A model generated the notes under the pieces. It did not search any database. It was not told the DNA's origin and worked only from the letters and a program-made list of their open reading frames with translations. A program made the translations under genes and the position numbers. A stretch of DNA of 64,000 nt, taken from contig CALUVW010000002.1 in the NCBI GenBank assembly GCA_944324315.1, forward strand, positions 1 through 64,000. The letters run 5' to 3'. The DNA comes from Candidatus Gastranaerophilales bacterium (GTDB lineage: Bacteria > Cyanobacteriota > Vampirovibrionia > Gastranaerophilales > Gastranaerophilaceae). Shown one piece after another: positions 12,996 to 40,123 of this stretch (position 1 is its first letter; each line of letters starts with the position of its first letter).

Positions 12996-14657
12996 TTACA
13001 TATTATTGCTTAAAAATACCATATTTTCAGGTTTTAACATATTTTGATATTGCAGTGACGACTTATTTTGAGTATTCTCTGTTGCTTTTTGTTCTGCCAG
13101 TTTTGCCTTTCTTCTAACCTCAGATTTATTGGTCATATAAATGTTTAGTTTTGGAATGCCGACACCAAGAATTAAACCAGAATACAAGTATCCGGCAACT
13201 TGAGCCAAACTTAAAATACGCAATTTCTTTTGGGTTCCTTTCCTTATTGCATCAGGAACTCGTGAATCTGCTAATTTCTTCAACATTTGTTTAAACGTTA
13301 AAGCCTTACCGTTCTCAATTGTATCAATATTAGCAGCTTTTAAACCTTTATGCAGTATTTCATCCCTGCTAAACATCGGAGCTTTTATTATTTTATTAAA
13401 GAAACCTTTTCCATGTTCTTTTTCACTGTAATTCAACAAACTGGTATCCATAGCATTAGCTGTCATTTTAGCTACAAAATTTCCTAACACAAGCCAGTTA
13501 AAGAACCCAAGAACATCTTTAACAGCAGATTCACGGAGTTCATCTTTATCACGTGCTGCCATAAAACGAGACATAATAGTCATACCGTAAATAAACTTAA
13601 ATTGATCCAGTGTCGGTACAAGTCCTTTAAATTGTATTTTCTTTAATAAACCGTTAACTCCGCCTTTTAAGCCTATTGTAGCGAGTATGCCTCCACCAAA
13701 TACAGCTGCTGTTGCAACTTTTAATAATTTAAAACCTACAGAATTATCTTTTTGTCTGCCTTCAACTCCCACAAAACCGTCACTGCCTGTTTTCTTTTTA
13801 GTCAAATATATATTTAACGGTTGAATTGACATTCCAACAGCAGAAGCGATACCCAAACCAAGCATTGAACGGTGTTTATTCATTTTTTTCAGTGCATTTA
13901 AGTAAGAATTTTTAGAAATATTTTCATTAAATGCATTTTTAATATTTGAATTTTCACTGTTAAATGTTTTGGTCACATTATAGACACTGTCTAAAAGATT
14001 AGACAATGATGTAGGCAAATGATTTTCAGACAGCCTGAAAGAACTTTCTGAACCGGTAGCATGAGTAATAACAGATTGAAGATATGCTTTCAAATCTTTT
14101 GGAATTGTATTTGGAGCATATTCGTAATTTAATGCATCAGATAATTTTTTAACGACTTTGTTTAAACATTCTTCCGGAAGTTTAACCCAATCATCATTAA
14201 TACGAGTTTCAGCATTTTTGAACAGCTCTTTTAAATAAGCATTTAATGGGGCTGTATTACCTGTTTTTACCTGATTATCCCAAACTTTACCCAATATTTC
14301 CAAAGTTTGGTCATCAGTAAACATCTTATATGCTTTTACGCCATATTTTCTGTCAAGAGCAGCAGCAAGAAGAAAACCTGCAATTGTACCATAAACACCG
14401 ACTAAAGAATGATTTATTGTTCCCGAGGCCTCTCTCCTTCCTGTTTCCATACCAGCAGCAGGACCTCTGTTTATAAAATCAATAGTAGTTCTTGGAAGTA
14501 CCATTGACCCGATATCTACAGCATTAGCACCCCATGCCTGATTTGTTTCTAAAAATCTCAATCCTAGTGTAAATGCATCAAATGCACCGGTAAATTTAAC
14601 TTTACCGGAATCTTTATTCTCAGTATTTAGTTGGGGTATAATCGGTTGAATATTCAT
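12996..14657 (-). CDS. uncharacterised membrane protein, paralogue of the neighbour at 14670-16397
   Basis: This 553-residue protein has a polar N-terminal tail ending in KVKFTG (20-25) and several hydrophobic segments (about 80-100, 265-285, 315-345, 385-405 and 485-505). It shares a series of motifs with the next gene in the same order: VDIGSMVLPRT, RREASG, SIQPLNIYLTKK, IQFKGLVPTLDQ and SRFMAARDKDELRESAVKD. These define a protein family that I cannot name. AAAGGAAA sits upstream of ATG 14657. A Gln/Lys-rich C-terminal tail follows the last helix. No catalytic motif is evident. Confidence 0.75.
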   Translation of the reverse strand: MNIQPIIPQLNTENKDSGKVKFTGAFDAFTLGLRFLETNQAWGANAVDIGSMVLPRTTIDFINRGPAAGMETGRREASGTINHSLVGVYGTIAGFLLAAALDRKYGVKAYKMFTDDQTLEILGKVWDNQVKTGNTAPLNAYLKELFKNAETRINDDWVKLPEECLNKVVKKLSDALNYEYAPNTIPKDLKAYLQSVITHATGSESSFRLSENHLPTSLSNLLDSVYNVTKTFNSENSNIKNAFNENISKNSYLNALKKMNKHRSMLGLGIASAVGMSIQPLNIYLTKKKTGSDGFVGVEGRQKDNSVGFKLLKVATAAVFGGGILATIGLKGGVNGLLKKIQFKGLVPTLDQFKFIYGMTIMSRFMAARDKDELRESAVKDVLGFFNWLVLGNFVAKMTANAMDTSLLNYSEKEHGKGFFNKIIKAPMFSRDEILHKGLKAANIDTIENGKALTFKQMLKKLADSRVPDAIRKGTQKKLRILSLAQVAGYLYSGLILGVGIPKLNIYMTNKSEVRRKAKLAEQKATENTQNKSSLQYQNMLKPENMVFLSNNM

Positions 14658-14669
14658 GCTATTTTCCTT

Positions 14670-16397
14670 TTATGAAGTGATAAATGACTTAAATGCAGTA
14701 TTATCTTTTATTATTGATTCAGAAAATTTGTAAGTTGAAGGTGTGTCATGTTTTTGTGCAGCATTATCTGAATTTATAGTCGTTTCCGCATTTGCATCGG
14801 CTTTTTCGGCTTTTAGTTTTGCCAGTTCTTCTGCATGTTTTTTGTTTGTAACAGCCCTGTTATATAAAGGAATAAACACGCCTAGTGCAATCAAAGAGAA
14901 GGCAATATTACCTATTTGGCAAACAGTTCTTAAATTTTTATCTCTAACGGTAACAAGTTCATCTGAAGATTTTATAGCTGTATGTTTTGCCCAATCCCAG
15001 AATTTTCTCAACGCATTAGCATCTTTGGATGGTTCTTTCAGTCTGTTTATTAAATGTACTTTTTTAGTACCGTCTTTGCCTTTATTATAAATATATTCAA
15101 TTAGAGTTGCAATACCTTTAGAAACATAATCTCCGAGGAAATAAAGACTTGCAAATGTTGCAATATCTCTGACTGTTGCTTCACGTAATTCATTTTTATC
15201 TTCTGAAACAGCCATACGGCTTGCAAACGTAGCGGTAGAAATTATTCTAGCCTGATCCATAGTCGGGAACAGTCCTTTAAATTGTAAAATATTTTTCAGA
15301 GAAGGACGATCCATAAACATTGACAGGGCTGCAACACCAACCATAGAAGCAATAGATATGAATTTCTGCTTTAACAACTCCTGTTTTTCTTTTGGAGTTA
15401 AAATCTTATCTTCCTTGCGGTCTTTAAAATCCGTATAAATAGGAGCACCTTTTTTACCAGAAGTTTTTCGTGTAATCCATCTGTTTATAGGTTGCATTGA
15501 AATAGCGAGAGGAATAATGATACCTAGCCCTGCAAGACTTTTTACATTAACTAGTTTTACAGCTTTTGAAATATATTTAGAGGATTTTTCGGCAGTATTT
15601 ATACCTTCTTTTTCAAATGCTTTATGCAAGTCAACAAAATCTTTTAAATAGCCCTTCAAATCTTTTGAAAGATAGCCGTCATGACCATTCAGCCTCAAAT
15701 GTTCTGACATATGTGAAGCTTTTACAATTGTGTTATATCCTCTGTTGAAAAGCACAGAGCTATGTTTTTTCAAACGGGAAGATTTTGCAATTTGTTTAAC
15801 ACCTTTAGAAATAACCGCGTTATTTGAGCCGTCCTGAATAAATTTTTTATCAAGAATCTTACCGTCAACACCTGACAAATCTTGCATAAAGGCATTCAAA
15901 GCATTCTCCAGTCTGACAGAGCCTTTGCCTTTAGCATTTATTAGATATTTTTGTACAATTTTTAAAGATTCTTCATTAGCCCAGACATTTGACAGATTTG
16001 CTTTTCCAAAACCTTTCATAACAGGTAGCTGTAAAAGCCAGGCAGCCCCCATAACAATAAAGCTTGGAATTAAACAGTTTACAATTAATCCGGAAGATTC
16101 ACGACGAAAAGCCTCCATACCGGCATAAACATTTAATTCTCTTTTTGCCGGATTACCGTTTTCATCAGTTCTTTTTGATCCTGCATAAGTTTCAACGAAT
16201 GAACGCGGAATTATTGCAGTGGACAAATCAAGAACAGAAACATTAACCATAGGCTGCTGTTCACATTTCTGAACCAAGCCCATAGCCAGATTACCAAGTC
16301 CCGTAAATGACGGATTCTTGATATCTTTATTCCCTTTTTGTTTCAATGGGGTATATTTATTACTATCTACACTACCTAATCTTAAATTTTCAATCAT
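14670..16397 (-). CDS. uncharacterised membrane protein, paralogue of 12996-14657
   Basis: This 575-residue protein starts at ATG 16397; an in-frame GTG 30 bases upstream would add ten residues without homology. It carries NPSFTGLG near the N-terminus, VLDLSTAIIPRS, FRRESSG, SMQPINRWITRK, LQFKGLFPTMDQ and SRMAVSEDKNELREATVRD, all aligning with the downstream neighbour. Predicted membrane segments lie near residues 105-125, 280-300, 345-365, 405-420 and 510-530. The C-terminal tail is Ala/Lys/Glu-rich. The two genes are 12 bases apart and probably co-transcribed. Function is unknown; similarity to any transport or enzyme family is not visible. Confidence 0.75.
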   Translation of the reverse strand: MIENLRLGSVDSNKYTPLKQKGNKDIKNPSFTGLGNLAMGLVQKCEQQPMVNVSVLDLSTAIIPRSFVETYAGSKRTDENGNPAKRELNVYAGMEAFRRESSGLIVNCLIPSFIVMGAAWLLQLPVMKGFGKANLSNVWANEESLKIVQKYLINAKGKGSVRLENALNAFMQDLSGVDGKILDKKFIQDGSNNAVISKGVKQIAKSSRLKKHSSVLFNRGYNTIVKASHMSEHLRLNGHDGYLSKDLKGYLKDFVDLHKAFEKEGINTAEKSSKYISKAVKLVNVKSLAGLGIIIPLAISMQPINRWITRKTSGKKGAPIYTDFKDRKEDKILTPKEKQELLKQKFISIASMVGVAALSMFMDRPSLKNILQFKGLFPTMDQARIISTATFASRMAVSEDKNELREATVRDIATFASLYFLGDYVSKGIATLIEYIYNKGKDGTKKVHLINRLKEPSKDANALRKFWDWAKHTAIKSSDELVTVRDKNLRTVCQIGNIAFSLIALGVFIPLYNRAVTNKKHAEELAKLKAEKADANAETTINSDNAAQKHDTPSTYKFSESIIKDNTAFKSFITS

Positions 16398-16698
16398 AAT
16401 AAATATAGTCTGGTCTAAGTTACACACACATTATAACAATGACACAAACATATTAAAAGTCGTCAAAGAAAAAAATTGCGTCTTATAGTCAAAATGTTAA
16501 AGAGATATTAAGAACACAATTTGATTTATTTTTTAAAAATAAAAATATATTAAACAAAATTTTATATTATTTTATAAAAATCCCTAAAAAAATAATTAAG
16601 TTCAGGCAGTATATGCAAAATAAATAGTAAAAAAATATGTAAAGAATTGTAACAATTTTTATATAATAGAAATATGAAAAATTGTAATAAGTAAAATA
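16398..16698. other. AT-rich 301-base intergenic region
   Basis: The region holds no open frame of note. It contains an HLR1-like direct repeat (16636-16653). A TATAAT read on the minus strand at about 16420-16430 could serve the 14670-16397 gene with a leader of about 30 bases. Another TATAAT on the plus strand (16662-16667) has no convincing -35 box. Confidence 0.5.
16636..16653 (-). promoter_or_regulatory. HLR1-like direct repeat (possible RpaB-type site)
   Basis: On the minus strand this reads GTTACAAT-TC-TTTACATA, two KTTACAWW half-sites ten bases apart. This is an exact fit to the published HLR1 consensus bound by the cyanobacterial response regulator RpaB. It lies about 240 bases upstream of the membrane-protein gene starting at 16397. 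A second exact fit is at 39785-39802. No regulator gene is in the window. Confidence 0.5.
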
Positions 16699-33046: not shown

Positions 33047-34120
33047 TTGCCAAGTACCATAATATCATCAGTTGATACAAATAAAAAAAAACACACAGGT
33101 AAATATAAAGATCCGTTAAATAAACCTTTACCTGTGTTAATGTCTTATTCAAACGAAATCGGAACAGCTATATCGGAAATAGCACCGAAACTGGGCGCAG
33201 CATTATGGGCTCCGACTTTCATGTATCTTGGTGCCGATATTTATGATAAATACAAAAATGATAAAGATAACTACAATCCTAGCGGCAAAAGAGCCTTTAA
33301 AAGAGCTATATTTCAGGGCTTGACATCAATCATTGCTCTGCCGGTATTAATTTTCGCCGGTCAATGCACAGTTTCTCCACTGACAAAAATTGATAAATGG
33401 GGAATTTCAGGCAATGCAAAAGATGCGGTTTACAAACACACAAAAAACGTTATAGATCAGGCACACGGTATAGCTCTTGAAAGTTACGAGAACTTTAAAA
33501 ATATCATTGTTGAAAGTTTAGAAAATAAAATTAAAACACGAAAACATGAAAAAAATACCTCCGGAATTTTAAAAAAAATATATAATAAAACTTTTACCCA
33601 TCGTTATACACTCTTGGAGTCAGATAAAAGCAAAATTATCGCATTTGCAGAATATAATGCAAAAAAAACATACAATATAATTGAAGCCTTAAAAAATCAT
33701 GATAAAAAACACGTACCTTGGAAAATATATAAAAAATACCAGAACACAATTCCGAAAATGAATGAAATGTATAAAGAAGCAGATTATTCATATTATGCAA
33801 CCAGAACAGCCTTAAAAGATTATCAAATGTCACTTATATTTAAAAATAAAATTTTAAAAACACTAGGCGGTTTTGGAGCTCTTATTTTATTTGCAAATCC
33901 GGTAAACGATTTTGTTGATAAACAAATAATGAAAAAATTTATAAGTCCAGGAATAGATCACATATACAAAGCTCACATTAATGATTCAAGAATTAAAGCA
34001 ATATTTAATAATATGAATGCAAGTTCTACTTCGTCTTATAAAAACGAGACGACTTCAAACCTGATTCAGAAATTAAAGATTCAGCACGGATTGACGTCAA
34101 AGGCTGGGGGATCTCCATAA
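33047..34120 (+). CDS. uncharacterised protein with membrane segments
   Basis: This 357-residue protein starts at TTG 33047 after GTAAGGA. It has hydrophobic stretches near residues 36-52 (LGAALWAPTFMYLGADI), 87-103 (GLTSIIALPVLIFAGQ) and 283-297 (LGGFGALILFANP), with a long basic helical region (about 130-280) between. Helix two is preceded by KRAFKRAIF, comparable with the protein at 3363-3938. TATAAT near 33010 may be its -10 box. The last 95 bases overlap the end of the convergent cpaF-like gene, so one of the two C-termini may have drifted. Function is unknown. Confidence 0.65.
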   Translation: MPSTIISSVDTNKKKHTGKYKDPLNKPLPVLMSYSNEIGTAISEIAPKLGAALWAPTFMYLGADIYDKYKNDKDNYNPSGKRAFKRAIFQGLTSIIALPVLIFAGQCTVSPLTKIDKWGISGNAKDAVYKHTKNVIDQAHGIALESYENFKNIIVESLENKIKTRKHEKNTSGILKKIYNKTFTHRYTLLESDKSKIIAFAEYNAKKTYNIIEALKNHDKKHVPWKIYKKYQNTIPKMNEMYKEADYSYYATRTALKDYQMSLIFKNKILKTLGGFGALILFANPVNDFVDKQIMKKFISPGIDHIYKAHINDSRIKAIFNNMNASSTSSYKNETTSNLIQKLKIQHGLTSKAGGSP

Positions 34121-35360
34121 CATATTCTCCATCAACTAATTTTGCAATTGTTTTTATTGATAATGAAGCAGTACGCGCAGGAGTTAGTTCCACAACAGAA
34201 GTAAGCTTGGGAGTTTCACCATGAATATTGTTAATTTGGATAATATAATCAAAACAATCTAATACTTTATGTTTGGCGTATTTTTCTGTACAATTTTCTT
34301 CTACCATTATTGAAGAAACTAATTTTGAAAAAGCGTCGTTAACAGAAGACGAACGCAACGATAAAATAACACCTTTTTTCTCAGCTATTCCCTGAACATA
34401 AGAATTTAAGTCAATAAGCATATAATCAGGCATCATCTTAAAAAGTTCCGATAAAATTACAGGGAAATTTTCCTGAGATTTTTTTACGAGAAAGTTCATA
34501 AACTCACCCGATTTTAAACAAATTTGAGGCATTTCCTGCAATAGCACACCACGTTTATTTAACATCATTGAATTTATAATAGTACCAATAAGCAACGTCT
34601 TACCGGAATTTATGTCTCCTGAAATAACAATATTTTTTTTCATATCAATAGCAGATATCAAAAAATCAAAAATTTCACGCGGCATAATACCTGAACTCAA
34701 TAAAGAATCAATATTATAATCAGGGAATTTTCTTATAGAAATCACAGTGCCCGAACTGGCAATATCAGACGATATAACAGAAATTAAAAGATTCTGAATC
34801 GTACAGCTCCAAATATCACTTAATTTCTCAGCTTTTTTCCCTGAGATTGATAAAATATTATTGATAATAAGTTTTATTTGTTCTTCTGATAGTGCAATTT
34901 CGGTATTTAAAACTTTTCCGGCTATTTCTATATAAACATTTTTAGTGCCGTTTACTATTACAGACGAAACATTATCTTTTTTTATCAAATCTTCTAATGG
35001 TCCAAATCCGAGAATAGAATTATACAAGCTATCAACAAGAAGCGGCATACTTTCCGACGGAATATCCATAGATGCATTTAACAAAAAAGTTCTTATTAAA
35101 TCTTTTTGTTTTTCACTGTCATAATCTGCCCAAACAGGGATAGAACTTATTTTTTCCAGCAAAGCCTTACGCAAATTTTTCTCGACATCAGCTAAATCCG
35201 TAATAACAGATTGGCTGCTATTATTACTTAAAATAATATCTTTTTCTTCAGATATTTCAGAAATATTAACAGTATCATTCACTTCATTATCATGACTGCT
35301 TTTTAAAATCCCTTTATCTCTTTTAAACCTGCTGCTTAATTTACTGCTGTATAAAACCAC
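34026..35360 (-). CDS. CpaF/TadA-like secretion ATPase with degenerate active site
   Basis: This 444-residue homologue of pilus and secretion ATPases keeps the CpaF N-terminal domain (VSSVIVNGTKNVYIEIAGKV, about 131-150), the GTVISIRKF segment (204-212) and Walker A GDINSGKT (248-255). The other motifs are worn down. The Asp box reads LLQEMPQICL instead of an ED..EL form. The Walker B region is PDYMLIDLNSY (311-321), where CpaF proteins have IVGEVRG. The usual DARLPDGSR stretch is absent. ATP binding is plausible, but normal hydrolysis is doubtful. GTG start, with AGAGGTG three bases after the CpaE-like gene. No pilus structural genes are nearby. Confidence 0.8.
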   Translation of the reverse strand: MVLYSSKLSSRFKRDKGILKSSHDNEVNDTVNISEISEEKDIILSNNSSQSVITDLADVEKNLRKALLEKISSIPVWADYDSEKQKDLIRTFLLNASMDIPSESMPLLVDSLYNSILGFGPLEDLIKKDNVSSVIVNGTKNVYIEIAGKVLNTEIALSEEQIKLIINNILSISGKKAEKLSDIWSCTIQNLLISVISSDIASSGTVISIRKFPDYNIDSLLSSGIMPREIFDFLISAIDMKKNIVISGDINSGKTLLIGTIINSMMLNKRGVLLQEMPQICLKSGEFMNFLVKKSQENFPVILSELFKMMPDYMLIDLNSYVQGIAEKKGVILSLRSSSVNDAFSKLVSSIMVEENCTEKYAKHKVLDCFDYIIQINNIHGETPKLTSVVELTPARTASLSIKTIAKLVDGEYVMEIPQPLTSIRAESLISESGLKSSRFYKTK

Positions 35361-35363
35361 TTG

Positions 35364-36533
35364 CTATACACCTCTGATATTTTTTGTAAATTTTTGCCTG
35401 TATACTTTATCGGAAACCATCATTGCTAAATTCTTAAAACTTTGTGCAACGTTTGAATCAATACTTATTTCAGAGACAGGAACTCCCTTATTAATTGCCG
35501 CCATCATTGTAAAATAATTATTTGGAATTTTCCAATACAATTGTTTACCTAAGACTTCCTCAACATCTTCCGCTTTGATTTCATCATTTTCCATATACCT
35601 GTTAATCAAAATCTGCACTTTATCTTCATCAATACCTAATTTTTCAAAAAATTCGAGGCATCTCTGACAATTTCTTAATGCAGGAAGATTTACTATTGAT
35701 AAAAGAAATATAAGATCTGAATTTTCAACAGCAGTCATAGCCTTGCTATCAAAACCACCGGATGTATCTACAACAATATATGAAAATGTCTGCCTTAAAA
35801 TATCAAATAATCTTATTATATCTTTTGATGAAATATTATCAGCTTGTTTAAAATACGGCGGATCCGCAAGAACATACAAACTTGTATCCTTGTATTTTTC
35901 CAGCGTTGAAAGCAAAAAATCTTCATTAATTTTATCAAGATTTTGGAGCATATAAGAAATATTAAAAGAAGGTTTTAAATCCAAAAAAGTTGTAACATCG
36001 CCAAGTTGAAAGTTTAAATCAATAAGAGCAACATCTTCTTTTGTAATTTTTGCAAGTTCAAATGCAAGATTAGTCGCTACAGATGTTTTGCCGACTCCTC
36101 CTTTGTTAGAATAAACAGTAATAATACGGCATTTAGACTTTTTCTGTTTTATATTTTCAATATCATTATATAACTTAGACAAAGATTCTAAACATTCATT
36201 TTTAATCACCGGCAAAGCAAGAAAATCAGATGCACCAACTCGCATAGAGCGTATTACTACATCAACATCAGGTCTGACAGACATAGCAATGACACGACAA
36301 TCCGGAAAATCTGACGTAATTTTTGAAATAAAATTTAATCCCTGTTCCTGATATTCGGATATATCAACAATAACCAGAACTTTAGACAATTCCTTTATTG
36401 CGTTATATGCTTTAGAAAACTCTGCAGTATCTGATAAAAAAGAGAATTTACCTGATTCTTCCAGATATCTTTTTAATAAATCAATAGTATGAAACTGTTC
36501 CGTAATTATAATCGAAGGTATAGCTTGTTTCAT
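35364..36533 (-). CDS. CpaE/TadZ-like protein: pseudo-receiver plus MinD-type ATPase
   Basis: This 389-residue protein starts at ATG 36533. Residues about 5-115 form a receiver-like fold (VIVDIS, GASDFLALPV) that lacks the paired N-terminal acids of true receivers. Residues about 135-375 form a ParA/MinD ATPase with deviant Walker A KGGVGKT (144-150), DLNFQLGDVTTFLDL and DTSGGFD, as in CpaE and TadZ, which place pilus machinery at the cell pole. Its partner here is the CpaF-like gene three bases downstream. The upstream in-frame extension is rejected because it runs through the promoter. Confidence 0.88.
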   Translation of the reverse strand: MKQAIPSIIITEQFHTIDLLKRYLEESGKFSFLSDTAEFSKAYNAIKELSKVLVIVDISEYQEQGLNFISKITSDFPDCRVIAMSVRPDVDVVIRSMRVGASDFLALPVIKNECLESLSKLYNDIENIKQKKSKCRIITVYSNKGGVGKTSVATNLAFELAKITKEDVALIDLNFQLGDVTTFLDLKPSFNISYMLQNLDKINEDFLLSTLEKYKDTSLYVLADPPYFKQADNISSKDIIRLFDILRQTFSYIVVDTSGGFDSKAMTAVENSDLIFLLSIVNLPALRNCQRCLEFFEKLGIDEDKVQILINRYMENDEIKAEDVEEVLGKQLYWKIPNNYFTMMAAINKGVPVSEISIDSNVAQSFKNLAMMVSDKVYRQKFTKNIRGV

Positions 36534-36539
36534 ACAGAA

Positions 36540-36568
36540 ATTATAGCATATTTCAATAAAAGAAGCAA
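36540..36568 (-). promoter_or_regulatory. cpaE-like gene promoter, apparently leaderless
   Basis: On the minus strand, TTGCTT (36563-36568), 17 bases, TATAAT (36540-36545), then TTCTGT and ATG. This geometry is identical to that of uvrB (-10, six bases, ATG) and no ribosome site is present. It begins immediately after the 6S RNA terminator. Confidence 0.75.
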
Positions 36569-36575
36569 ATAAAAA

Positions 36576-36750
36576 AGCCCTGTACAAATGTGATTTTGTT
36601 GCCTGCGTGGTCTCGCAGGTGGGTGAACGCCTCGGATTATCCGTTTCCCGCTGGCGATATCAAAATCGGCGGGTATACTTCACATCCTGTCAGAGTCAAT
36701 TCTCCCTTTTATAAAAAATGTAGGAACAAAATGAGCATCTGCACAGAGCT
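36576..36750 (-). ncRNA. ssrS: probable 6S RNA
   Basis: This segment of about 175 bases, high in G+C for this genome, folds into a long rod. CTGTGCAGATG at the 5' end pairs with CATTTGTACAG at the 3' end (with G-U pairs), and ATTTTGTT pairs with AACAAAAT. A CCCGC/GCGGG hairpin forms the apex, and CCTGCG-AGACCA-CGCAGG sits in the 3' side of the central region next to GTTCACCCACC. A consensus promoter is placed exactly at its 5' end, and a T tract follows the 3' end. 6S RNA mimics an open promoter to bind the housekeeping RNA polymerase. The name rests on size, shape and terminal pairing, not a database search. Confidence 0.72.
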
Positions 36751-37545: not shown

Positions 37546-39717
37546 TTAATTCATTTTTAAAGTTTTCAATGCTTCTTGCTCCGCAATATCAGCTCTATGC
37601 AGCGCATCATTTGCAGCAGTTAAATCTTCGCCGGTTTTATTCGTGAGCTGAACCCCCATAGGAGATGGGATATAGGTTCTAACAGGCTCATTATTTGATT
37701 GATTGTTTGACTCTTTTTGCTGAGTAACAGTAGTAGTCGTATTATTTTTATATTTATTCAACAAATTTGTAGGACTTTGCGTTCCCTGTTGAGTTGTCGT
37801 CGTTGTTGTCTGTTGCATCTGATTTTGGGTCAGTTGTCCTTGCTGCTGAAGCTGTGGCGGAAGCTGGGTTTGTTGAGCATTTTGAATCTGCTCTTGTGGT
37901 TTTTCTTTTCCTTCATCAAGTATCGAATTTTTAGGTTTTCCAAAGAGTAAATGACAGCCTTTTACTGCAATTTTACTCAAGAACGGCAGAATAATCATCA
38001 TACCGAGAATAATTCTCATCGGATAACCTGCCATTTGCTTAATACCGAATTTCGGATGACGGAACAAATCTTTTATCTTACTCATTATACCTTTTCTGTA
38101 AGTTTTTGTACCATCAGCAGCAATATCTGCGATATCTTTCTTATCATAAGGCCTTATCTGTTCAAGACCAACCGTAACAATTCTGCCTATACGCTTAAAC
38201 AGTTTTGTAATTGGATTTTTAACTCCAGCATTAAGCATTTGTTTCAAGTTATCCTTTGAAGCTTTCCAGGCTGCTTTATCTTTAAACAATCCTGCCATTG
38301 CAGTATCATTGTGAACTTTCAAAGCTTTTCGGTATGCTTCAACCTGTTCCTTGGTCATACCAGCATACTGCAGACCACCTATTCTATGCATTAACTGAAT
38401 TGCAAAAGGCATTGCAACGAAAAAGGCAATCATCTCCGTAAAACGCTCTGCAAAAGTTTTAACTTTTTCACTTACCCCTTCGGTTTTAGCAGTTTTATAT
38501 AATACATCCGCTAAGTATGCAGCCTGCATTAAGGCTACAAACTTACCGCCTGCAACCCTGTTTGTTGCACCTTCAAGAACAAGGTTATTATATTTAGCCA
38601 GAAACTTACCAAGCATTGATTTTGGAATCTTTTTATCAAGTCCTGTTTTTTTCAGAACATTATCTAACTCTTTATTTTCTGCAAGATTTACATTGCCTAA
38701 AGAACCTGCAAGTTTATTGCCTGTTTCGGAAGCATAAACCTCACGTCCGAAAAGCCACGTTTTAATTCTGCCCCACTTGCTATGATTTGTACCCCAGATT
38801 CTTGCAAACATTTTAGGGTTAGCGTCATGACAAGCCTCAAGGACACGCGGCATTTTCTCTTGAATATTCTTTTGAACAGCTTCCATTTCGGCAAAATCCT
38901 TATAGCCCCATTCAAAAGCTTTCATATCTTTTAGTTTTGCAATTTTCCCGGCATCATCAAGCCCTTTAAAATCACTAATCTCTTTTGCAATCTGTGCAGG
39001 TGTCCTTTTTAACCTTGAATTTTGTAATATTGTTTCAAGCTCTGCACGCTGCATAATTTCCGCTCTTGCCTGCGGAGTTGCTGCTTTATTAAATAAATCT
39101 TTATACCGTTGAATATCAGCTTTTGATGCACCATAACAATCCAAATCATCTATATGTTTAAGCGGTTTTACAAACTGCTCGCCATGCTGCGGATAATCAA
39201 ACAACTGCATCCCCCACATTCCGTTTGCCTGACCTTTTACCATATCCAGTTCAGGGAGAGACGGTGTATATGCCATTGCCCTTGTAACTCTAAATCTATC
39301 AATTAAATTCTTCTTTAAAAAAACTTTGAAATTCTTAAAACCACTATTTAACGAATGAGCAAATGATGATTTGCCAAATGTACTATTTTTTACGTGACTT
39401 GTAATATCATCTCCGAATTGCCCGGCTTTATGATGGACTGTCTTTTCAAAATCTCCTCTTGATTTGTTTGCATAATAGTCCATACCTTTAGAAATAGCAA
39501 ACCATGCCGGTACACTTAAAGCAGCCGTATAAAGTACTGCTTCAGGATCTTCCGCATTTTCACCAAGACGGTTTGCGACATAGCTGTCCTGAACATTTTG
39601 TTTTAATAATTCAGGATTAACAGCCTGCATAGGTACCTGTCCGCCCTGTGCGGTCGTAGGATTTACCGCCTGAAACTGCGGACCTTGTTGATTATTAATA
39701 TAATTTTTATCGAGCAT
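37546..39717 (-). CDS. large uncharacterised membrane-associated protein
   Basis: This 723-residue protein starts at ATG 39717 with AGGAAAA upstream. The N-terminus is Gln/Asn/Pro-rich (NNQQGPQFQAVNPTT). There is a hydrophobic segment near 55-75, a long polar helical region, then hydrophobic stretches near 440-460 (FFVAMPFAIQLMHRIGG) and 590-610 (MRIILGMMIILPFLSKIA). The C-terminal 100 residues are a low-complexity Gln/Thr tract with TTTTTTQQ and TTTTVTQQ. I see no catalytic motif and no clear alignment to the other membrane families here. An HLR1-like site lies about 70 bases upstream of its start. Confidence 0.75.
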   Translation of the reverse strand: MLDKNYINNQQGPQFQAVNPTTAQGGQVPMQAVNPELLKQNVQDSYVANRLGENAEDPEAVLYTAALSVPAWFAISKGMDYYANKSRGDFEKTVHHKAGQFGDDITSHVKNSTFGKSSFAHSLNSGFKNFKVFLKKNLIDRFRVTRAMAYTPSLPELDMVKGQANGMWGMQLFDYPQHGEQFVKPLKHIDDLDCYGASKADIQRYKDLFNKAATPQARAEIMQRAELETILQNSRLKRTPAQIAKEISDFKGLDDAGKIAKLKDMKAFEWGYKDFAEMEAVQKNIQEKMPRVLEACHDANPKMFARIWGTNHSKWGRIKTWLFGREVYASETGNKLAGSLGNVNLAENKELDNVLKKTGLDKKIPKSMLGKFLAKYNNLVLEGATNRVAGGKFVALMQAAYLADVLYKTAKTEGVSEKVKTFAERFTEMIAFFVAMPFAIQLMHRIGGLQYAGMTKEQVEAYRKALKVHNDTAMAGLFKDKAAWKASKDNLKQMLNAGVKNPITKLFKRIGRIVTVGLEQIRPYDKKDIADIAADGTKTYRKGIMSKIKDLFRHPKFGIKQMAGYPMRIILGMMIILPFLSKIAVKGCHLLFGKPKNSILDEGKEKPQEQIQNAQQTQLPPQLQQQGQLTQNQMQQTTTTTTQQGTQSPTNLLNKYKNNTTTTVTQQKESNNQSNNEPVRTYIPSPMGVQLTNKTGEDLTAANDALHRADIAEQEALKTLKMN

Positions 39718-39784
39718 AGTTTTCCTATTTTCCCCTATATAAATATAAAAACAAAGCGCAAACAATTATTGCTTTTTTAAATCT

Positions 39785-39802
39785 TATGTAAAGAAATGTA
39801 AC
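39785..39802 (-). promoter_or_regulatory. HLR1-like direct repeat between divergent genes
   Basis: The plus strand reads TATGTAAAGAAATGTAAC. The minus strand reads GTTACATT-TC-TTTACATA, two KTTACAWW half-sites ten bases apart, an exact fit to the HLR1 consensus of the cyanobacterial regulator RpaB. It lies 12 bases upstream of the -35 box of the small plus-strand gene and about 70 bases from the large minus-strand gene, so it could control either or both. Confidence 0.55.
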
Positions 39803-39814
39803 AAGTTAATCGTT

Positions 39815-39842
39815 TTGTGAAATTCAATACTTTTTATATACT
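39815..39842 (+). promoter_or_regulatory. promoter of the small gene at 39887
   Basis: TTGTGA (39815-39820), 16 bases, TATACT (39837-39842). The leader of about 38 bases carries GAGAGG before the ATG. Confidence 0.6.
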
Positions 39843-39886
39843 TTATATATACATAAGAAGTAAATAAGAAGAATGAGAGGCATAAA

Positions 39887-40051
39887 ATGGCAGTCGCTAA
39901 TTTGAAAAAAATTGATGACAAATTAAAAAACATCTATGAAACTCAAGTTACGGTTAACAATAATCAGCCGTTTGAAGATCGTTCGGAATTGCTTTTTGCT
40001 CAGATGAATTTTATCGCAATGGCAAATAAACAAGCTTTACACTTAATCTAA
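39887..40051 (+). CDS. small protein of 54 residues, unknown function
   Basis: The frame begins MAVANLKKIDDKLKNIYETQ and ends NKQALHLI. It is preceded by GAGAGG at a normal distance and by a promoter, and followed 40 bases later by a strong terminator, so it is a complete one-gene unit. The protein is mixed-charge and helical, without membrane segment, signal or cysteine. I do not recognise it. It shares its upstream region, including an HLR1-like repeat, with the large protein on the other strand. Confidence 0.75.
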   Translation: MAVANLKKIDDKLKNIYETQVTVNNNQPFEDRSELLFAQMNFIAMANKQALHLI

Positions 40052-40090: not shown

Positions 40091-40123
40091 ACCTGATTTC
40101 AAAAGAAATCAGGTTTTTCTTTT
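40091..40123 (+). terminator. Rho-independent terminator after the 54-residue gene
   Basis: ACCTGATTTC (40091-40100) and GAAATCAGGT (40105-40114) form a perfect 10-bp stem with an AAAA loop, followed by a T-rich run. The nadD -10 box follows within 15 bases. Confidence 0.92.

Follow-up and report, generated by a model that had tools for sequence, protein, structure and literature searches.

An exact copy of HLR1, the 18-bp direct repeat of the cyanobacterial regulator RpaB, lies at positions 39785-39802 (minus strand) of the 64,000-nucleotide stretch of a Candidatus Gastranaerophilales genome that we analysed (hereafter the window), and it is likely to be a genuine site of the RpaB orthologue encoded in the same genome, one of a wider regulon, from which a 54-codon gene on the plus strand would be activated. 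The organism is a non-phototroph, a status taken from its lineage (PMC3787301; record titles), and the genes adjoining the site, the 54-codon gene and a divergent gene for a 723-residue protein, are both of unknown function, as had been proposed in an earlier sequence-only reading of the window. Photosynthesis and high-light genes, the known targets of HLR1 control, were not found among the neighbours of the site.

Results

Exact HLR1 repeats in the window, the genome and the family

Read on the minus strand, positions 39785-39802 are GTTACATTTCTTTACATA, in which the half-sites GTTACATT and TTTACATA are separated by TC; the repeat in this orientation points toward the minus-strand gene, and read toward the plus-strand 54-codon gene it is TATGTAAAGAAATGTAAC. 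There are no mismatches to the RpaB/HLR1 consensus KTTACAWWnnKTTACAWW and the half-sites have a period of 10, so that the fit of the 18 bases to both half-sites claimed by the sequence-only reading, which gave no strand, is exact on the minus strand. The window contains one other exact match, GTTACAATTCTTTACATA at 16636-16653 (minus strand). In 300 dinucleotide shuffles of the window there was a mean of 0.027 exact matches and none reached two, an excess of ~70-fold. When up to two mismatches were allowed, there were 16 matches in the window against 13.6 expected, which is no enrichment; only exact matches are therefore informative, and our claim is based on these.

We counted exact HLR1 and a reversed-pattern control in 291 genomes of the phylum. 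The genome under study has 18 exact matches versus 5 for the reversed pattern, its genus 427 versus 55 (21 congeneric genomes) and the 111 remaining family genomes 2388 versus 295; every one of the 132 sampled family genomes exceeds its own reversed control, with totals of 2815 and 350. For one cyanobacterial family (31 genomes), the corresponding counts are 381 and 37. As we read the patterns, the reversed one will also match a true site when displaced by a single base; it therefore overestimates the background, and these enrichment ratios are conservative. Set against background, a comparison that the sequence-only reading had suggested, the motif is thus far more frequent whether judged by window shuffles or by genome and family counts. 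Repeats with a half-site period of 10 outnumber those with a period of 11 about fourfold (20.3 versus 5.3 per genome, the latter from ~153 matches in 29 congeneric genomes), although period-11 repeats are also somewhat enriched above their own reversed control. The window site, with its period of 10, does not have the WalR-type period of 11.

Fixed promoter geometry upstream of a conserved 54-codon gene

The 54-codon gene (MAVANLKKIDDKLKNIYETQVTVNNNQPFEDRSELLFAQMNFIAMANKQALHLI; 39887-40051, plus strand), the probable RpaB target, has orthologues in 48 of 117 family genomes and 15 of 41 genera. Among its codons with a single change, 253 changes are synonymous and 60 nonsynonymous, and because the changes are mostly synonymous, the gene very probably encodes a real protein; the 54 residues have no match in NCBIfam or Pfam. 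A probable ribosome-binding site, GAGAGG (39875-39880, plus strand), is retained in nearly all aligned promoters, and a predicted intrinsic terminator, ACCTGATTTC-AAAA-GAAATCAGGT followed by a T-rich stretch (40091-40114, plus strand), would make the gene monocistronic.

In 30 orthologous promoters, long invariant blocks are confined to the pair of TGTAA half-sites, TGAAAT and TATATACTTTATATAT. The -35-region element TGAAAT (39818-39823, plus strand) is invariant in all 30 and begins 15 bp after HLR1 in 29 of them, the gap being 16 bp in the remaining one; a further 17 bp separates it, in 30 of 30, from CTTTATATAT. The core promoter block TATATACTTTATATATAC (39835-39852, plus strand) is nearly invariant, with 16 invariant columns. 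An exact HLR1 is present in 29 of the 30 promoters, where 0.01 would be expected from shuffling. In a second set of 80 promoters, drawn from named records (mostly Candidatus Gastranaerophilales) and partly overlapping the genomes of the first set, 62 have an exact HLR1, 6 have one mismatch, 11 have two and 1 has four, so that 68 have at most one, and the geometry HLR1-15-TGAAAT-17-CTTTATATAT is nearly always kept. In most of the 11 promoters with two mismatches, the distal half-site has drifted to a TATTAA-like sequence and the proximal TGTAAC is kept.

This conservation test refutes a chance match in AT-rich DNA, which might have been entertained on the grounds that the window is not enriched when two mismatches are allowed; given also the excess over shuffles and the enrichment in all sampled family genomes, we regard the probability of such a match as negligible. 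Where the sequence-only reading had placed a -35 box 12 bases beyond the repeat, there is indeed a TTGTGA (39815-39820) that can be paired with TATACT (39837-39842), but what the relatives conserve is the overlapping TGAAAT.

There are two -10 candidates for the 54-codon gene, TATACT and TTTATA (39842-39847). With TATACT, HLR1 would lie at -64 to -47, as computed from the conserved promoter, and with TTTATA at -69 to -52, slightly outside the range of -66 to -45. In cyanobacteria, activation by RpaB is known from sites at about -66 to -45 and repression from sites overlapping the start (PMC13421787); from a position at -64 to -47, which applies if TATACT is the -10, we infer that the 54-codon gene would be activated rather than repressed.

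The divergent gene

The intergenic region is divergent, and on its other side lies the gene for the 723-residue protein (37546-39717, minus strand), which is of unknown function. It has a promoter-like element of its own, GCAATA-N17-TTTATA (39744-39772, minus strand), identified from sequence and conservation. The distance from HLR1 to a conserved CCTATA block of this gene varies from 51 to 64 bp among relatives, and since the spacing on the plus side is fixed, the plus-strand gene is the likelier target.

The same measurements bear on two other explanations. The repeat might be nothing but the -35 box (TTTACA) of the divergent gene's core promoter, with no activator involved, and TTTACA-16-AATAAT does score 10 of 12 in that direction. 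However, both half-sites are retained rather than one TTTACA alone, the distance to the divergent block varies while that to the plus-gene promoter is fixed, and the divergent gene has its own element, which together make this explanation very improbable. Alternatively, RpaB might bind but mainly control the divergent gene, or both genes. The distances to the minus-strand promoter fall into two groups, 51-52 and 62-64, that differ by about one helical turn, so that joint control is possible; yet the fixed spacing and the invariant promoter blocks are found on the plus-gene side only, and the two groups could stem from a few ancestral indels. We consider this arrangement unlikely, and continue with RpaB-dependent activation of the 54-codon gene as the preferred reading.

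Several further features of the region may be recorded. An element of the form G[CA]AATT-N17-TTTATA recurs at several promoters, in the window (39744-39772, minus strand) and at three other sites (L134, L179 and L186), and may point to an alternative sigma factor. Two possible Tad pilus genes at 34026-36587, on the minus strand like the divergent gene, encode a CpaE-like receiver/MinD protein and an ATPase with a weak match to CpaF. A search for a phage origin of the region gave no match. This locus also occurs in public records that look mislabelled, their titles being Fusobacterium sp. CAG:439 (94% protein identity) and Clostridiaceae (73%) for L265 and L309.

The RpaB orthologue and its relatives

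The genome encodes three OmpR-type regulators, L019, L020 and L021. L019 scores 362 bits against the NCBIfam RpaB equivalog NF045944, over the cut-off of 330, where the other two reach about 203 and 210 bits, and it is 70% identical to cyanobacterial RpaB; its recognition helix, DTRVVDVHISRLRSKLE versus DTRVVDVHISRLRAKLE, differs from the cyanobacterial one by a single Ala/Ser exchange. By these measures L019 is a true RpaB orthologue, and the RpaB homologue whose presence the sequence-only reading had made a point to check is thus encoded in the genome. An over-cut-off RpaB is found in 281 of the 291 phylum genomes.

L021 and L020 match the RpaA of S. elongatus, for which a structure has been solved, with 281.7 and 226.6 bits, and L021 is probably the RpaA orthologue. 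It is conceivable, then, that the site is real but read by one of these two proteins: all three regulators are encoded, one review describes competition between RpaA and RpaB at some promoters that they share (PMC13421787), and G265, a 99% complete genome from another family of the order, is enriched in HLR1 (11 versus 1) and has no over-cut-off RpaB. Against this, the RpaB recognition helix occurs only in L019, those of L020 and L021 being different (EDVRMLRVHVGGLRNKIE and DDIETIRVHIRHLRSKID), and HLR1 was defined with RpaB. We give a reader other than RpaB a small chance. A few genomes of the family itself, for example G268 and G324, likewise have many HLR1 sites and no over-cut-off RpaB, perhaps because of assembly gaps.

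The redox cysteine of the cyanobacterial RpaB receiver domain is not found in this genome, where the position is Thr (YGVT). It is replaced by Thr or Val in nine of ten family RpaBs examined, the exception with Cys being G005, and it is Cys in a sister family (f3). This distribution indicates that the cysteine was probably lost within this Gastranaerophilales family.

The best kinase candidate, L077, has NblS (NF045911) as its top family with 331 bits and WalK as its second-best with 299, and appears to be an NblS/WalK-like kinase without full NblS status, since the NblS equivalog cut-off is 1000 bits. The rpaB/nblS pair sought by the sequence-only reading is therefore present as a type of pair, but its kinase is only NblS/WalK-like. 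We found no close HLR1 upstream of either gene in this genome that would speak for their autoregulation. Since most family RpaBs examined have another residue in place of the redox cysteine and the kinase falls short of a full NblS, the input signal of RpaB is probably unlike the cyanobacterial one.

Other HLR1 sites and a candidate regulon

The flanks of all exact HLR1 sites were compared between this genome and three congeners. The sites at the 54-codon gene, next to glnA, and between a divergent pair of EF-hand and small-protein genes are kept in four of four genomes. The second window site, at 16636, is kept in three of four (two of three congeners, being absent from the G006 list); it precedes a gene at 14670-16427 (minus strand), with ~240 bp between the site and the ATG at 16397. 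No photosystem genes were seen on inspection of the flanks of the other HLR1 sites. Two adjacent large proteins encoded in the window at 12996-16427 (minus strand) share an FTG motif in their N-terminal part, and similar motifs occur in proteins behind other HLR1 sites. Sigma28-like promoters (TAAAG...CCGATA) are found just downstream of HLR1 at six loci (L002, L005, L122, L126, L130 and L139).

The glnA-linked HLR1 faces away from glnA, toward ~95 nt of conserved sequence with a C-rich segment that is unpaired, a hairpin of GGAATT with AATTCC, and an intrinsic terminator. This small-RNA-like gene lies behind the HLR1 promoter at G000:C2:96217-96303 and 107250-107336 (L206, L009/L010). It has no match of note in Rfam, and a covariance model built for it, which covers no HLR1 sequence, has hits in 98 of 114 family genomes and 36 of 41 genera. 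Upstream of 28 of the 29 readable copies there is a reverse-oriented HLR1-like element (exact in 8, with one mismatch in 2, two in 14, three in 3 and four in 1), the remaining copy ending at a contig edge; since the six sequences from which the model was built (from congeners and G063) had come via exact HLR1, only the copies found later count as an independent test. The proximal TGTAA half-site is conserved at a similar distance in all 28, and the reversed pattern fits the copies worse (none exact, three with one mismatch). A second type of small-RNA-like gene occurs near surE in L013. The loci L009 and L010, 11 kb apart (G000:C2:94912-108962), have the same glnA start and upstream DNA as far as compared, and these twin glnA/HLR1 loci would reflect either a duplication or an assembly artefact.

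At nine loci (L003, L004, L011, L012, L014, L015, L052, L066 and L075), ATAGG tandem repeats directly follow the promoter, in a module of reverse-oriented HLR1, TATAAT and 3 to 11 ATAGG units. HLR1 is exact in six of these; of the remaining ones, one has one mismatch and one has three, and the ninth was read by eye. The modules lie upstream of proteins without known function and vary in repeat number, which makes length-dependent expression conceivable. As the ATAGG promoters look like copies of one module, they are not independent evidence. The notion that HLR1 is simply spread as copies of one dispersed repeat holds for 6 of the 18 genome sites; the window site has no ATAGG repeat.

Discussion

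The arrangement described here suggests a simple mechanism, in which a phosphorylated RpaB dimer would occupy the tandem pair of TGTAA half-sites (about -64 to -47). RNA polymerase would thereby be recruited to the TGAAAT/TATATACTTTATATATA promoter, and the 54-codon gene would be activated as genes are by RpaB in cyanobacteria from -66 to -45. The window site would be one of a wider RpaB regulon with no evident light-related target, which would also include the small-RNA-like gene family, one copy of which is next to glnA, and the ATAGG-repeat promoters.

The 18-bp consensus and the period of 10 are shared with the HLR1 of the NblS-RpaB system of Synechocystis 6803 and Synechococcus 7942 (PMC13421787), and the likeness to the cyanobacterial system extends to an orthologous regulator, a nearly identical recognition helix and, if TATACT is the -10, a similar activating position. 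In contrast to that system, the targets are not photosystem or high-light genes, the redox cysteine is mostly replaced and the kinase is below the NblS cut-off. The atpT promoter of Synechocystis depends for its activity on an HLR1-like element at -45 to -60 (PMC9241938), and since atpT encodes the small protein AtpTheta, HLR1 would drive a small protein in both cases, a likeness of arrangement only. Cyanobacterial RpaB also controls the small RNA PsrR1 (PMC6202907; PMC12850537), and an RpaB-type site at a small-RNA promoter recalls the RpaB-PsrR1 feed-forward loop in its circuit logic, with no claim of homology; the Gastranaerophilales RNA has no Rfam match, and its locus is outside the window. 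The WalR site of Firmicutes, TGTWAH-N5-TGTWAH (PMC4168254), has the same type of half-site but a period of 11 rather than 10, and the regulators of the WalRK/VicRK system are related, with YycF among the best models for L019 and WalK in second place for the kinase. The shared half-site and the high rank of these models for both proteins make an older, envelope-type role of the RpaB circuit possible.

Homologues of RpaB, RpaA and NblS in the Melainabacteria, non-photosynthetic relatives of cyanobacteria, have been known since 2013, their function having been left open (PMC3787301; PMC4040986). Of HLR1 sites in non-photosynthetic lineages we found no report in the literature searched, most subscription journals lying outside it. 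The pattern fits ancestral retention of the DNA specificity of RpaB. The sister family f3 (five genomes) keeps RpaB, with the same recognition helix in the four examined, and shows no enrichment of exact HLR1. For this reason only half of the proposal that the RpaB circuit has another, older role carries over: another role is well supported, but the case for an older one lacks support. We put forward tentatively, as a view that could well prove wrong, that an RpaB-HLR1 regulon without photosynthesis, with a small RNA among the genes driven by RpaB, extends across the family and reveals control that existed before, or apart from, light acclimation.

The conserved sites with their fixed promoter geometry provide a list of testable RpaB target genes, and make it feasible to compare the regulator, its site and its targets on both sides of the origin of photosynthesis. 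Judged from these genomes, the non-photosynthetic gut relatives of cyanobacteria appear to use the same regulator for an unrelated gene set.
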